Shown: piece by piece, positions 2,985 through 36,315 of the stretch | Layout of the letters: each line of letters begins with the position of its first letter | How positions within the stretch are numbered: position 1 is the stretch's first letter | NCBI GenBank assembly: GCA_017469355.1 | Contig: JAFUGM010000042.1 | Location: 1-60,758 of the forward strand | Origin: Solobacterium sp. | GTDB taxonomy: Bacteria > Bacillota_I > Bacilli_A > Erysipelotrichales > Erysipelotrichaceae | Reading direction: 5' to 3' | DNA: 60,758 bases | The notes under the pieces: model-generated | What the model saw: only the letters and a program-made list of their open reading frames with translations | Database searches by the model: none | Told to the model about the DNA's origin: nothing | Translations under genes and position numbers: made by a program

Positions 2985-5900
2985 TCAATTTTTCAATGTC
3001 AGCAATCCGGGTGAAGCGGATCCGCCATCCACTCTGAAATAAACAGTGTCACTGAGTCTTGTGCTGTCGTTATAGTTCTTTATTACTTCAGAGCTTTTTG
3101 TTCCGGCACCACCGATCAACTTAGAAGTACCACTAAACATTGTGTCCCCGTTTATGACATTCGGGAGTCCTTTAAACTCCTCATTCACATAGATTGTTTG
3201 TAATTGGCTCGCATAATGAAACATATTCTCAACATTACATCCATCAGGGATATTAAATCTCCCAAGATCAATTGATTCTTTTTGCGAGTAACTAATCATG
3301 TCCGAAACATCACTTATATTTGACCAATCCCATGTATTCAACCCAATAATCTCAACATTATCTTTTGATGTATAAAACATGTGATTTAATGTTATTTCAT
3401 TATCTAAAAATTGCCAATTACTTAAATCAACAACTGCATTCTGTAATGCATAAAACATGCCACACGCTATATTTTTTTGATGAATCTTAGCATTCCTCAA
3501 ATTGAGATAGACAGGAACATCTGCAGATGAGCCTCGTGCACAATAGAAAATTGACGGACTACTATATTCTCCGTACCATTCAGTATTATTCATATCAACA
3601 GTCAGTGGTCCTTTATTTTCATAATGCAACATATTCGATAAACCATAACTATATGAAATATCGGTGTGGAAGGTCACCCCATTCATATTGATGTATTCAA
3701 ATCTCACATCACTCAGCATACCATCGGCTTTTGTTGAACTCGGCAATTTCCATCCCTGAATATTCAAAGCGTTTCCTTTAGCTGTGCTAAAGAGATAGGA
3801 TAATTTTGCTGACTCAACAGTATCTTTCCATGCGGTCAAATCTAAAGTTCCTTCCCATTCCGCATTTCGAAACATCCCCTCCATGGTCTCGATGGATGAC
3901 CAATCCATATTTTGTAGTGCATCCTGAAATAAATTGACATTTGTAGTGTTTGAAAACACATATCGCGCAGATGTCACATTTGATACGTCTAATGTGGGCA
4001 TTGATACCGACTCAATCGACTTACAATTGTAAAACATATAATCAACCGACGTAATCATGTCCCACTTGACTAACGGTAAATGTATTTCTTTCAAATTATA
4101 GCAGTTATAGAAAGCATGATAGATTTCTGACCTCGATGTGTTCGTTTCTGCAGCCCCTTCATTTGTTAGATACAGCGTGAAATCCTCATCCTCAAGGCTA
4201 TTACAATTACTAAAAAGCCCATACAAAGTGTCAGTTCTCACCTTATTAGATTCCGTATACCAATAGAGTGTAAACGTATTTATATCGATCCAATAATACA
4301 ATGGCGCACCTGCAGTGACTAATGCATATTGCGTATACGAAATGTCCGAAGGCAAACTTTCCGCTCGAACTATGTGTTTTATGCCACCTGCAATATCACT
4401 ACGCCCGTTATATCGCACCGACATGAAGTTGTTCGCGTATGGCATATAAGTCGTTTCTATCCAATCTGCATACAATGTGACCATGTTTTCCTCAGGAATT
4501 TCACCGGGCGTATACGGCTTGGTGAGTTCTCTGTCGTAATACCACCGATCCACGTGATCGTATTCAACCGACTTTGGAACAGCATTCATTTCCTGACCAC
4601 CAATTACCCTTGGTGTTTCATCAGAAAAGTCATATATCACTGTATTGACACTGCTCGTCGTATTTTCAAAGTATCCCTTATTGTTCAGATCATAAATAAT
4701 CATGTAATTAGTTTCTGGCATGTCAGAAGATATAGTGACAACAGGATATTCTCTGCCGTTCGCTTCCGAACCAGTCTTTCGATCATTCCACTTTTTTACA
4801 ATTACTATTTCGTCATCTTCCAACCTCTCGTTTTCAACCAAGTGATAAACTCCTGTATCAACTAGTCCAGAGATTGATACATCGCCATTTTTCTTAATCT
4901 TCACTACTCTTTGAGTGCTATCAAGTAAATAATGCTCAGGAGCCTGAACTTCCTGCATCAAATATGTACCAGGTTCAAAACCCTCGAAGTCCACAACGCC
5001 ATTACTGTTTGACTCTGCAGTTTCATAATATTCCGTTCCATAATCAGACATTCCCCAGACGCGGAACTGTGCACCTTCTACTGGGCCATTATCGTAGGAA
5101 CTTGTTTTAAGAAGTGTGAATCCATGATAAGGCTCATTGTAAATAGCCGTGTAACGTCCCTCTTTTTTAGGGCCTTTTAAATCCGCTAATGTGAAATACC
5201 CAGGATTACTACTACCTTCATCTAAATGTGCATATACTGCTGTATTCTTGCCTGACTCAAATCCCGTTCCTTCCCCCCCAACTAGTTTGGTGTTATATGC
5301 AAACATGGGATAATGACTCACTGATTGTCTCATTTCACCCCAAGAATTATCCACATATATCGTCTCTAAATTTTCGCATGTATAAAACATTTGGGCTGGT
5401 TGCGTTATATTACTCCCAACCATTCCAGATAAGTCGATCACTCGCAATTTATTACAGCGATTAAAAGCATCTACTGTGATGTTTATAGAAGGCATTATAG
5501 CTTCAGAGAAATCAAGTTCCTCTAATGCCGAATAGCAGTTTTGAAACATACCATATATGTTTTCTAACGATGAAAAATCAACCGCACCAAACTCTACGCA
5601 TTTTAAATTAGAGCATCCGTAGAACATCTGGGCAGCTGTAATGATACTAGATGTATTCACCCATGTATCTATACCGTGAATCTCGGTAATATAGTACATA
5701 TCCTGAAACATAGAAGCGAGGCTTGTTACACCACTTAAATCCCAGTCATATACATTAAGGACATAATATCCATTTATTCCAATGTTTCTTATAAAGTTCG
5801 AAAGACTACCAGGCACTTTAAAGTTGTTCATATTTAGTACCTGAACTCCTGAAGATCCAGAGAACATGTATCTTAATGTGTTCGCTATGTCTTTCCCCGT

Positions 5901-6389
5901 AAAATTCCAATTTGAAATGTCTGCATTTTTTATACCGGGACAATTCGCAAATGCATACTGAGCATTTGATATATTAGATTTATTCCAAGATGATATATCA
6001 ATACTTTCCAGGCTATAACAGCCTTGAAACATACTGCCTATGCTAGATGTATATGAAGTATTAATATTTTCTATTCCTACTATACTTGTTAATTTTTGGA
6101 ATTCATAGAACATGGAATTACTCCATACAGGTGCGAACACATTTGGATTTATCACTATGTTTTCAACTGAAGATTTATCGAGCGTACTTGAATATCCTAA
6201 TGTACCCTGATTCATAGTGCATGGATTTCCGTCTCCAACAATAAGCGTATTTCCTTTTAATGTCACTGTGCAATAATTTGTCGGAAGCCCTTCCGCAGAA
6301 ACATCAACGACCTCAGCCTTAAAGAAAAGTGATGCCGCAACACAGATTATCATTACCAGTTTTATCAGTTTATTAAACATCTTTAACAT
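2985..6389 (-). CDS. BspA/DUF285-type leucine-rich surface protein with internal Cna-B domain
   Basis: About 1134 residues from the ATG at 6387-6389 (AAAGGTG upstream; an in-frame GTG four codons earlier is the alternative). After a signal peptide there are two solenoids of ~25-residue repeats of the MFxxCxxLxxIDLSxxxxSN type, typical of BspA/DUF285 proteins. Each solenoid ends with the family's closing block, an LxGGxGT motif followed by SxPGxxTL. Between them (about residues 405-650) sit a Cna-B/SpaA domain (TLLKTSSYDNGPVEGAQF ... GTYLMQEVQAPEHYLL) and an InlB-like beta segment (WYYDRELTKPYTPGEI). No LPXTG-like signal or C-terminal membrane segment exists, so it is either released or held by partners. 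Its place between adhesin and sipA suggests a pilus-associated adhesin. Function is inferred. Confidence 0.82.
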   Translation of the reverse strand: MLKMFNKLIKLVMIICVAASLFFKAEVVDVSAEGLPTNYCTVTLKGNTLIVGDGNPCTMNQGTLGYSSTLDKSSVENIVINPNVFAPVWSNSMFYEFQKLTSIVGIENINTSYTSSIGSMFQGCYSLESIDISSWNKSNISNAQYAFANCPGIKNADISNWNFTGKDIANTLRYMFSGSSGVQVLNMNNFKVPGSLSNFIRNIGINGYYVLNVYDWDLSGVTSLASMFQDMYYITEIHGIDTWVNTSSIITAAQMFYGCSNLKCVEFGAVDFSSLENIYGMFQNCYSALEELDFSEAIMPSINITVDAFNRCNKLRVIDLSGMVGSNITQPAQMFYTCENLETIYVDNSWGEMRQSVSHYPMFAYNTKLVGGEGTGFESGKNTAVYAHLDEGSSNPGYFTLADLKGPKKEGRYTAIYNEPYHGFTLLKTSSYDNGPVEGAQFRVWGMSDYGTEYYETAESNSNGVVDFEGFEPGTYLMQEVQAPEHYLLDSTQRVVKIKKNGDVSISGLVDTGVYHLVENERLEDDEIVIVKKWNDRKTGSEANGREYPVVTISSDMPETNYMIIYDLNNKGYFENTTSSVNTVIYDFSDETPRVIGGQEMNAVPKSVEYDHVDRWYYDRELTKPYTPGEIPEENMVTLYADWIETTYMPYANNFMSVRYNGRSDIAGGIKHIVRAESLPSDISYTQYALVTAGAPLYYWIDINTFTLYWYTESNKVRTDTLYGLFSNCNSLEDEDFTLYLTNEGAAETNTSRSEIYHAFYNCYNLKEIHLPLVKWDMITSVDYMFYNCKSIESVSMPTLDVSNVTSARYVFSNTTNVNLFQDALQNMDWSSIETMEGMFRNAEWEGTLDLTAWKDTVESAKLSYLFSTAKGNALNIQGWKLPSSTKADGMLSDVRFEYINMNGVTFHTDISYSYGLSNMLHYENKGPLTVDMNNTEWYGEYSSPSIFYCARGSSADVPVYLNLRNAKIHQKNIACGMFYALQNAVVDLSNWQFLDNEITLNHMFYTSKDNVEIIGLNTWDWSNISDVSDMISYSQKESIDLGRFNIPDGCNVENMFHYASQLQTIYVNEEFKGLPNVINGDTMFSGTSKLIGGAGTKSSEVIKNYNDSTRLSDTVYFRVDGGSASPGLLTLKN

Positions 6390-17337: not shown

Positions 17338-17362
17338 AATTTCCTCCATGTCTGCCTCTCGT

Positions 17363-17386
17363 TAATAATATAGTACTATATTATTA
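17363..17386. promoter_or_regulatory. 24-bp perfect palindrome in promoter of CAP-lipoprotein gene
   Basis: The palindrome TAATAATATAG-TA-CTATATTATTA overlaps a likely minus-strand promoter (TTGCAT, 17-bp spacer, TATATT). It ends about 26 bp before the start codon. Its half-site TACTATAT..TATTA also appears at the sortase promoter (12253-12278). A dimeric repressor site is the simplest reading. Confidence 0.5.
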
Positions 17387-17506
17387 TCAATGCAACTGCA
17401 TTGGATAACTTTTTTTATTAACGGGGCTGAAAGTTTTACCTTTCACTCTTTAGACGAAGCGAAAATATGATTTTGAACGTTTTAATTTAAATTTTTTTAT
17501 TTTTTT

Positions 17507-17547
17507 CGAGATTCCGAGAATCGAACTCGGTTTAACCATTAATCTCG
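17507..17547 (-). other. tRNA-like minihelix (acceptor stem plus T arm, no D or anticodon arm)
   Basis: On the minus strand, a 7-bp stem CGAGATT/AATCTCG encloses AATGGTTAAA and then a 5-bp stem CCGAG/CTCGG closed by the 7-nt loop TTCGATT. The loop has the T54-T55-C56-R57-A58 pattern of a tRNA T loop, the stem is the canonical T-stem length, and the T arm is followed directly by the 3' half of a canonical-length acceptor stem. GGTTAA resembles a D loop. The D and anticodon arms are absent. It is followed by A-rich sequence, so it is not a terminator. It may be a tRNA relic, an attachment-site remnant or a tRNA mimic. Confidence 0.45.
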
Positions 17548-17550
17548 GTA

Positions 17551-17580
17551 AGAAAAGAGAGCCAGCAGATCTGACTCTCT
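17551..17580 (-). terminator. Rho-independent terminator after VaFE-repeat gene
   Basis: Minus-strand hairpin AGAGAGTCAG/CTGGCTCTCT (one G-U pair) with a 5-nt loop, followed by TTTTCTT, 10 bp after the stop codon at 17590. It ends the long unit that includes the subtilase and the VaFE protein. Confidence 0.85.
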
Positions 17581-17589
17581 ATTTAATGA

Positions 17590-28091: not shown

Positions 28092-28964
28092 TTACCATGT
28101 TTGATTTTCTGTATATTCTTCCGGTACCCACTCGGTGTACTCCGAATATTCTGAATATTCGCTGTATGGTTTCTCGACTTCCTGTGCATCCTGGTATGCA
28201 TCCTCGTTTTCAGCGTGGGTTGACTCTGGATTAATATCGAGATCCTGATCAACATTTTCATCCGACGCTGAAATTTGAGGTTCTATATCAACCGACTCTT
28301 CCGTCGGTTCGATCGTTTCTTCTGAGAATGATTCACTGATTTTGTGAATCGTATCTGTTTGGCCAAGGATGTACTCAAATGCACTTCGAAGAGTGAGATA
28401 CAGTTCATCACATTCTTCTTCCGTCATGTTTCGTTCAAATCCATCGTAACCGGGAACCGTACCTCGGTGGATATATACTGTTTCGCCATCCTTTACGAAT
28501 ATGACGGATGGAATTGTGAGGTGTGCTTCCTCATCCTTCATTCCGTTGCTGTTAGATACCGCAATGAATCCAATTTCATAAATCGCATCGGAATCTGTCC
28601 GATCAATGTATTCGATCGTTTCAAACTCATAGGAGTGGGCGATATCATTCAGTATCGGAACCAGTTCTTCACAGTAAACATCGTTTTCATCCGCAACCAA
28701 TATGACGAATGTCTCCTTCTCTTCATATTTCTTACGAATGACTTCACTTGTAGTTGAACTAAACAGAGATTCATCATTCTCATTCCATGTGGCGTAGTTC
28801 TCTACCGGCACATCCGCAGTTGTGCTTGAAACACCCGGGGGAGTGCTGAATTTCATCATCTGATTCACCACAATCACAGCACCCGTCACCGCCAGCCCGG
28901 TGCTTAACGCTGCTATTGCGATCTTGGCAGACTTCTTCAGTCTCAGATTCTTTTTCTTACTCAT
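28092..28964 (-). CDS. Membrane-anchored thioredoxin-fold protein with acidic, Tyr-rich tail
   Basis: 290 residues from ATG 28962-28964 (GGAGATCGAA before it). Basic start KKKNLRLKKSAK and one membrane helix (~15-36), then a thioredoxin-like domain (~80-200): TFVILVADENDVYCEELVP and IPSVIFVKDGETV fit the beta-alpha pattern and cis-Pro loop of thioredoxin. The active-site pair is degenerate, DVYC instead of CxxC, so a disulphide exchange role is doubtful. The tail (~205-290) is acidic and ends in a repeated YSE/YTE segment. The tail contains ISASDE and ESTHAE, peptides it shares with the otherwise unrelated SAF protein upstream; both are encoded by the TTTCAGCGT DNA motif. It lies 81 bp before the subtilase gene, likely co-transcribed. 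Confidence 0.75.
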   Translation of the reverse strand: MSKKKNLRLKKSAKIAIAALSTGLAVTGAVIVVNQMMKFSTPPGVSSTTADVPVENYATWNENDESLFSSTTSEVIRKKYEEKETFVILVADENDVYCEELVPILNDIAHSYEFETIEYIDRTDSDAIYEIGFIAVSNSNGMKDEEAHLTIPSVIFVKDGETVYIHRGTVPGYDGFERNMTEEECDELYLTLRSAFEYILGQTDTIHKISESFSEETIEPTEESVDIEPQISASDENVDQDLDINPESTHAENEDAYQDAQEVEKPYSEYSEYSEYTEWVPEEYTENQTW

Positions 28965-28996
28965 TTCGATCTCCAATCTTCTTGAATCAAACTATT

Positions 28997-29199
28997 GATT
29001 CGTCCGGTGTCATTGCTCGTATATGTTCAATGACCTTGCCATTCCTGTTACGGACTATGGCAGGCGATTTGATGGATTAAGTTGAGGTGAGGCGTGGGAA
29101 GCTACGTGTAGGGGAAAACCTCACCTCAACAGGTTGTTTCGGCTCCTAACTACAGGAATAGCCATGGAGGACCACTTCTCCGAAACAACATGACGAATC
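28997..29199 (+). ncRNA. Highly structured ~203-nt element with five stems and a kissing loop
   Basis: Nested perfect inverted repeats fill this intergenic gap. P1: GATTCGTC (28997-29004)/GACGAATC (29192-29199) encloses everything. P2: GTCATTG (29009-29015)/CAATGAC (29028-29034). P3: CTTGCCAT (29035-29042)/ATGGCAGG (29057-29064). P4: 12 bp, GTTGAGGTGAGG (29081-29092)/CCTCACCTCAAC (29119-29130). P5: 10 bp, GTTGTTTCGG (29133-29142)/CCGAAACAAC (29180-29189), with inner CTCC/GGAG. The P3 loop TCCTGT (29043-29048) complements ACAGGA (29152-29157) in the P5 loop. P3 contains one pair that is U-G on the plus strand but A-C on the minus, favouring plus-strand RNA. P1 abuts the stop codon of the SAF gene. 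No family is recognised. A single-strand origin or oriT-type DNA structure is the main alternative. Confidence 0.6.
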
Positions 29200-30621
29200 C
29201 TATTCAAGATCAATTCCTTCTAGAATTGATTCGCCCTCTGAATTGATGACATCTTTCAGGGATTTTCCTTCAAATGCCAGCTCGCCAAGATTCAATGCGA
29301 AGGACTTTGTTACTCCCTCCGCATTTCGTGTAGTAATAATTGCGTAAACTCGAACATCCGAGGATCCAGCCTTTGTTGCAGATACAGGAACTTTAACCTT
29401 CGTTCCATCTACATCAATTTCGATCATGTTCATGCCGTTCTTCAGTACTGCGTAATCTGAGGCAAGCAGGTAATCACCCGCTTCCAGATTTCCGGTAGCG
29501 TACTGGCCAGCTATCGCATTTCGATTTGACCAGAGCTGAACATAATCTTTCACGGTGTTTCCTTTACTGTCGATTGCTGTTCCTCCAGAAAGGTCATTGA
29601 ACTGCTCCCTCATGATGATGCTTTCCGTTAGAGCATCCTTTGGAATTACCTCACCTGCCTTTACATCCTTGGCCAGTGATATTACGTGAATCTCATCCGT
29701 AGGAGTTGCCTGCCTCTGCCCGAAGCCAATAACACCAACCGCATACAGCAGATATGGCAACAGCGCAAAGACCAGCAGGAACATCGCTGCAGTCCTTAAC
29801 CGCTTAATCTCTTTCGTCAGCTTTGTGATTCGATTCGACTGTGCGTCGTTTGTTCCAAAGTCAGAATAGGCACTCGGTGGAACATATGCGTTCTCATCTT
29901 CTACCAGATCATCCAGATTAAGTTCGATACCTGTATCCGGCTGCGCTGGTTCCTTGCTCTTCTTAACTTTGGACTTTTTACGCTTCTTGAACAGCTTGAG
30001 CTTTCTTGTTTTTTTACTTTTCTCCGCAGCTATTTCAGCGTGGGTTGATTCTTCTGGAGTTCCTGGGATAGGCACTTCTGCTTCAGTAGTTTCGAAATCT
30101 TCTTCCTCGATCAGATCCTCAGTTTCATCCGACGCTGAAATTTCGGGATCTGCAGTCTGCACTAATACTTCCGCCGGTTCCGTTTCCATCTCCCCTTCAT
30201 CTGATGACTCTTCAGTGACTGCTTCGCTTTCTGAAACGGGGGTTGTTTCTTCTGCTGGAGCGTCTTCATCCGTTTCGGGATTCTGAATGTCATCAGATTC
30301 GAGGGCGACAGGATTTGGTTTTGCAACCGGAGGAAGAGAAGGTGGAGTTATACAAATGGCTATTGCTTCCTCGATCTCCTCTGGAGTTGGGCGTTCATAT
30401 CGCTTTCCCTCAGAAGATTCCAGAAAGTTTTCCAGAATAGCCATGTATTTTTCTTTTGATGCGTGATACTTCTTTTCCGTACTTGGGTCAACAACGACAT
30501 TGCCGTAGAACAGCAGGAATTGACCCGGTTCTGAACTGACTTTTCCAAAGTCCACAAGCACACCGTGCTGGAGTATACCAATCAACGATTCGCCGGGAAC
30601 AAGTTTCTTTAATTCGGCCAT
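29200..30621 (-). CDS. Membrane protein with CpaB/SAF-like extracellular domain and acidic-basic cytosolic region
   Basis: 473 residues, ATG 30619-30621 after AGGTGACAGAAC. A small N-terminal domain (~1-75) is followed by a long acidic linker (~100-200), a strongly basic stretch (KLKLFKKRKKSKVKKSK, ~210-227), one membrane helix (~278-298) and an outer SAF-type domain (~310-400; AKDVKAGEVIPKDALTESII), as in CpaB/RcpC and flagellar P-ring chaperones, plus a C-terminal beta domain. SAF proteins usually help assemble pili or wall-linked structures by sugar binding. No Flp pilus genes are nearby, so the role here is inferred only. The acidic linker carries two copies of the TTTCAGCGT motif at DNA level. 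Confidence 0.72.
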   Translation of the reverse strand: MAELKKLVPGESLIGILQHGVLVDFGKVSSEPGQFLLFYGNVVVDPSTEKKYHASKEKYMAILENFLESSEGKRYERPTPEEIEEAIAICITPPSLPPVAKPNPVALESDDIQNPETDEDAPAEETTPVSESEAVTEESSDEGEMETEPAEVLVQTADPEISASDETEDLIEEEDFETTEAEVPIPGTPEESTHAEIAAEKSKKTRKLKLFKKRKKSKVKKSKEPAQPDTGIELNLDDLVEDENAYVPPSAYSDFGTNDAQSNRITKLTKEIKRLRTAAMFLLVFALLPYLLYAVGVIGFGQRQATPTDEIHVISLAKDVKAGEVIPKDALTESIIMREQFNDLSGGTAIDSKGNTVKDYVQLWSNRNAIAGQYATGNLEAGDYLLASDYAVLKNGMNMIEIDVDGTKVKVPVSATKAGSSDVRVYAIITTRNAEGVTKSFALNLGELAFEGKSLKDVINSEGESILEGIDLE

Positions 30622-36223: not shown

Positions 36224-36241
36224 AACATCTTGAATCAAAAG

Positions 36242-36315
<74 letters not shown>

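Follow-up and report, generated by a model that had tools for sequence, protein, structure and literature searches.

The YPAL / RU-2 sequence of Yersinia is 168 bp long, is not A+T-rich and occupies intergenic sites, where it is accompanied by target duplications of variable size; the sites it targets have, or adjoin, a dyad symmetry (PMC2229807). The ERIC and NEMIS/Correia sequences are also small structured intergenic insertions, and they are reported to be transcribed together with adjacent genes and to influence how stable the mRNA is or how RNase III processes it (PMC2229807). Among Firmicutes, bcr1 of Bacillus cereus is a short repeat of mobile type that is linked with the 5-bp motif TTTAT (PMC6542083). 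HEARO, the IscB-associated RNA (RF02033), measures about 200 nt and is both structured and mobile. ROOL, raiA and ARRPOF are structured RNAs that occur in mobile elements and in Firmicutes, and MITEs are normally present in multiple copies.

The element described here occupies positions 28997-29199 of the window, which is the whole 60,758-nt stretch of Solobacterium DNA that was analysed. It resembles YPAL / RU-2 in size class, in not being A+T-rich, and in intergenic site, duplication and the dyad at its putative target; however, YPAL is abundant and carries its inverted repeats internally, whereas the element occurs once and has inverted repeats at its very ends. ERIC and NEMIS are found in many copies, mostly with TA ends, and the element showed no sequence match to them. 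Similarly, bcr1 has tens of copies per genome, is restricted to the B. cereus group and is linked with TTTAT, in contrast to the CTATT motif observed here. HEARO is likewise located after the upstream gene in the relative G155, but the HEARO model gave no match to the element, which is not associated with an HNH nuclease gene. The lack of an Rfam match sets it apart from ROOL, raiA and ARRPOF as well: at E values up to 10, no family matched the element and no covariance model reached its gathering score, in line with the first-pass annotation in so far as it raised a family not yet described.

The element, which has a length of 203 bp and a G+C content of 49%, can fold on either strand into an 8-bp outer stem around four hairpin domains. 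The outer stem P1 is formed by the inverted ends GATTCGTC (28997-29004) and GACGAATC (29192-29199), given on the plus strand as are the following features. It encloses P2 (29009-29034), with 7 bp and a 12-nt loop; P3 (29035-29064), with eight pairs, one of them U-G on the plus strand, and three inner pairs; P4 (29081-29130), with 12 perfect base pairs; and the P5 domain (29133-29189), whose 10-bp perfect arms (29133-29142 and 29180-29189) surround two small inner hairpins on the plus strand and a different folding on the minus strand. The pair probabilities of P1-P5 range from 0.71 to 0.999 on both strands, and P6 and P7 are strand-dependent. With short flanks, the predicted free energy is -78.9 kcal/mol for the plus strand and -77.0 kcal/mol for the minus strand, with RNA z-scores of -4.81 and -5.82, respectively, and a DNA z-score of -5.48; the extended fold on the minus strand has a z-score of -5.1. 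In each fold, none of 200 shuffled sequences was as stable as the element, which bears out the outer stem and the four hairpins of 7, 8, 12 and 10 bp reported in the first-pass annotation. No open reading frame spans the element in the six-frame translation. A terminator scan found none inside it, so the view that such dense pairing is not that of a terminator also holds.

Two further structural proposals fared less well. A loop-loop pseudoknot had been suggested, but it is not significant and should carry no weight as evidence: about 40% of loop shuffles match or beat the 6-bp run between the two loops. The run extends to 8 bp (29041-29048 with 29152-29159) only by borrowing two bases of the P3 stem, and this pairing competes with P3 and P6. 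The U-G pair in P3, taken as a hint of a plus-strand RNA, is indeed present, and G-U pairs account for 3 of the 65 pairs on the plus strand; nevertheless, the polarity argument is weak, as the two strands fold about equally well.

A further feature lies at the ends of the element. A direct repeat of 5 bp, CTATT, abuts both 8-bp ends without any gap, its left copy at 28992-28996 and its right copy at 29200-29204 (plus strand). The right copy contains the TAG stop codon of the upstream minus-strand gene (29200-29202), which confirms that the outer stem directly adjoins a stop codon. A 5-bp match at the same spacing has a background of 0.00116 (0.116% of the window positions). Among 164 comparable inverted repeats of the window, having arms of at least 8 bp and a span of 150-320 bp, the element alone (1/164) showed an abutting direct repeat of at least 5 bp. 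Outside the ends of the element, TCTTGAAT (28980-28987) and ATTCAAGA (29202-29209) constitute another inverted repeat of 8 bp, whose arms pair when the fold is extended and may be read either as an additional stem, P0, or as the two halves of a target dyad. Both the direct repeat and the flanking stem were overlooked in the first-pass annotation. When the element and one CTATT are removed in silico, what remains is a stop codon, a small 8-bp hairpin made of the TCTTGAAT and ATTCAAGA arms, a GGAG and an ATG. As this removal restores an ordinary operon junction, a filled insertion site with a dyad target is a natural reading of the locus. One larger resident structure can also be read from it, since the outer pairing is identical in both cases. 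The exact repeat at the ends thus points to insertion, a possibility not considered in the first-pass annotation. Features of MITE type are the perfect 8-bp terminal inverted repeats, the abutting CTATT duplication and the short, non-coding sequence.

The element separates two genes of an adhesin operon, in a minus-strand gene row that is tightly packed. The upstream gene (29200-30621, minus strand) encodes a protein of 473 aa that appears SAF/CpaB-like by eye and has no Pfam match. The downstream gene (28092-28965, minus strand), whose ATG is preceded by GGAG, encodes a membrane-anchored protein of 290 aa, also with no Pfam match. The gaps in this row are mostly of 0-55 bp; at 234 bp, the one that contains the element is among the few exceptions. 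The row includes genes for ParA, a ParB-type protein and a protein with a weak replisome-organiser-like match, then the gene of the upstream protein, the element and the gene of the membrane-anchored protein; farther along are found very large surface proteins of SpaA/TQ type and a signal peptidase, with a sortase on the other strand. A tRNA-Pro gene is present at 36241-36315, with ordinary metabolic genes beyond it. Positions 1-36240 join a ParA/ParB-type module to a long row of very large SpaA, TQ and DUF7601 surface proteins next to tRNA-Pro, and this part of the window looks like a putative integrated mobile element of plasmid type that extends past the contig on its other side. No repeat of the tRNA-Pro end was found within the window. 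In the gap at 17350-17589, a terminator-like hairpin is followed by CCGAGTTCGATTCTCGGAATCTCG, which resembles the T-arm and 3' end of a tRNA; this stretch (17514-17530) is present once in the genome and has no Rfam match, and it could be the remnant of an attachment site.

Searches for further copies were negative at all scales. Neither DNA search nor a covariance model revealed a second copy in the genome itself, and none was found in 100 relatives or in 316 genomes of the order, 395 of the class and 339 of the phylum (overlapping sets), where a model built from one sequence and strict filtering of the large searches mean that diverged relatives can be missed. A set of 72,556 plasmids yielded nothing similar, and neither did phages, E. 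coli genomes or the regions examined around relatives of the ParB-type gene; scanning viral and species contigs by pattern was equally negative. The inverted ends at the spacing of the element have one occurrence in 70 genomes of the genus. Since no homologue was found, covariation is beyond reach, and a new structured ncRNA family, as proposed in the first-pass annotation, cannot be established.

Several candidate matches were rejected. BLAST matches in the own and related genomes were short, lay in or overlapped long open frames and were regarded as fortuitous. A match in G729, from the phylum set, was located in a long ORF region. The single match in the phage collection (E 0.7) was inside a permease gene. 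Pattern matches in viral contigs had a fold unlike that of the element, and the four in species contigs were about as many as expected by chance and failed the model. A model match in G321 was partial and reached 14 bits. Strongly folding stretches in relatives were different from the element.

Two further genomes within the genus encode relatives of the upstream protein, and four additional genomes of the family encode weaker ones, but none was found in viral contigs or plasmids. In the two nearest relatives, the junction that follows the upstream-gene relative measures 12 bp (G024) and 4 bp (G007), and neither contains the element. Past the junction the gene order is not that of the window, so these do not serve as clean empty sites, and no exact one was found. 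In G155, a HEARO RNA (134 bits; L042, G155:C82, 1078-1289, minus strand) directly follows the upstream-gene relative and is accompanied by an IscB-like gene, named by eye. Mobile elements do land at this junction, since G155 carries both of them there.

A different structured repeat was observed in G024. In the same type of gene row, a 1.5-kb non-coding stretch ahead of a sortase gene contains ten tandem units (L012, G024:C4:30000-49000, 4508-6013). In each unit, about 7 bp, a 2x2 internal loop and 3 bp form a 32-nt hairpin that is capped by the conserved octaloop YGCANGAR, and many units have a terminator-like hairpin and TTATG just before them. According to pair counts, 85% of the cells are paired, compared with 61% in shuffles (score 0.80 versus 0.32), and 9 of the 10 pairs show double changes. 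This covariation is strong; seen among tandem copies within a single genome, it shows that the structure is kept and does not indicate a function. Related single units are found in two adhesin-gene gaps of the G024 contig (listed as L012 18240-18271 and L075 1501-1526). Another unit, in G033 (L055, G033:C4, 1501-1532, minus strand, 31 bits), lies about 110 nt upstream of an ORF resembling an IS110-like transposase by eye and is either part of the non-coding end of the insertion sequence or its target. The octaloop hairpin has no Rfam match and is absent from the window; the array is possibly a new RNA family or a protein-binding array.

On balance, we give an even chance to the element being a small, non-autonomous structured DNA insertion, MITE-like in character, that is now part of the mRNA of the gene row. 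The abutting CTATT repeat, the normal junction obtained after removal, the short gaps elsewhere in the row, the element-free relatives and the HEARO and IscB-like gene at the G155 junction argue for this reading, as do the precedents for dyad targets (YPAL) and for effects on mRNA (ERIC and NEMIS) (PMC2229807). Under such a scheme, a transposase supplied in trans would have inserted the element between the two genes, which run in the same direction, at a dyad of 8 bp and with duplication of CTATT. The element would then be read through within the minus-strand mRNA, co-transcription being probable, and its stems would form a structured segment between genes that, by analogy with ERIC and NEMIS, probably alters processing or stability. 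The boundary affected would be the one at which the upstream replication/partition genes give way to the adhesin genes. Against the MITE-like reading count the single copy, inverted ends of only 8 bp, the lack of an identified partner transposase, the lack of an exact empty site and the flanking 8-bp pairing, which fits a larger resident structure equally well. As several copies, a usual feature of MITEs, were sought and not found, we do not class the element as a MITE; rather, in this reading it works like a bacterial one. An unlikely variant is a new kind of mobile multi-branched element, so rare that a single copy has been sampled, in which the fold of the RNA or of the single-stranded DNA would have a function of its own, either in insertion into the dyad or in controlling the gene row of the host.

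The main alternative, a tentative one, is that positions 28980-29209 constitute one resident domain (P0-P5) of the minus-strand transcript, acting in cis on processing, stability or translation at the boundary of the upstream module and the adhesin genes, with CTATT present by chance. The strong minus-strand fold (z-scores of -5.8 and, extended, -5.1), the P0 pairing outside the supposed ends, the location between co-directional genes and the single copy everywhere searched are consistent with it. However, both nearest relatives lack the element at the equivalent junction, its ends coincide with a direct repeat for which the background is 0.0012, and with no homologue there is no conservation. 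A non-coding RNA transcribed independently from the plus strand and antisense to the gene row, towards which the first-pass annotation leaned, is decidedly improbable: the three G-U pairs occur on the plus strand only and the inner hairpins P6 and P7 are better formed there, but the minus-strand fold is equally strong, no terminator follows the element, and there is no convincing promoter just upstream, the nearest promoter-like site being at 28620-28648 and such sites being fewer than in shuffles.

The perfect Watson-Crick stems on both strands, the DNA z-score of -5.5 and the nearby ParA, ParB-type and replisome-organiser-like genes would also suit a folded single-stranded DNA site of the plasmid-like element, that is, an oriT, a single-strand origin or a recombination site. 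We consider this improbable. Among the 30 larger ORFs of the window that were scanned, no Pfam match to a relaxase or rolling-circle Rep was found, and neither the plasmids searched nor the regions around the ParB-type gene relatives contained anything similar; the earlier suggestion of an oriT or single-strand origin thus gained no specific support. An intergenic stretch that folds well by accident would agree with the single copy and with conservation not being shown, yet it is very hard to credit in view of z-scores of -4.5 to -5.8 across folds, which no shuffle equalled, and of perfect stems of 12, 10, 8 and 7 bp.

Whichever of these readings applies, the CTATT repeat gives the unusual fold an insertion hypothesis that can be tested. 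As a resident RNA, the element would represent a structured RNA that is both new and very rare. As a mobile insertion, it would have set a compact fold of several hairpins between the maintenance and the adhesin genes of a plasmid-like element, where it would provide a ready-made control point.
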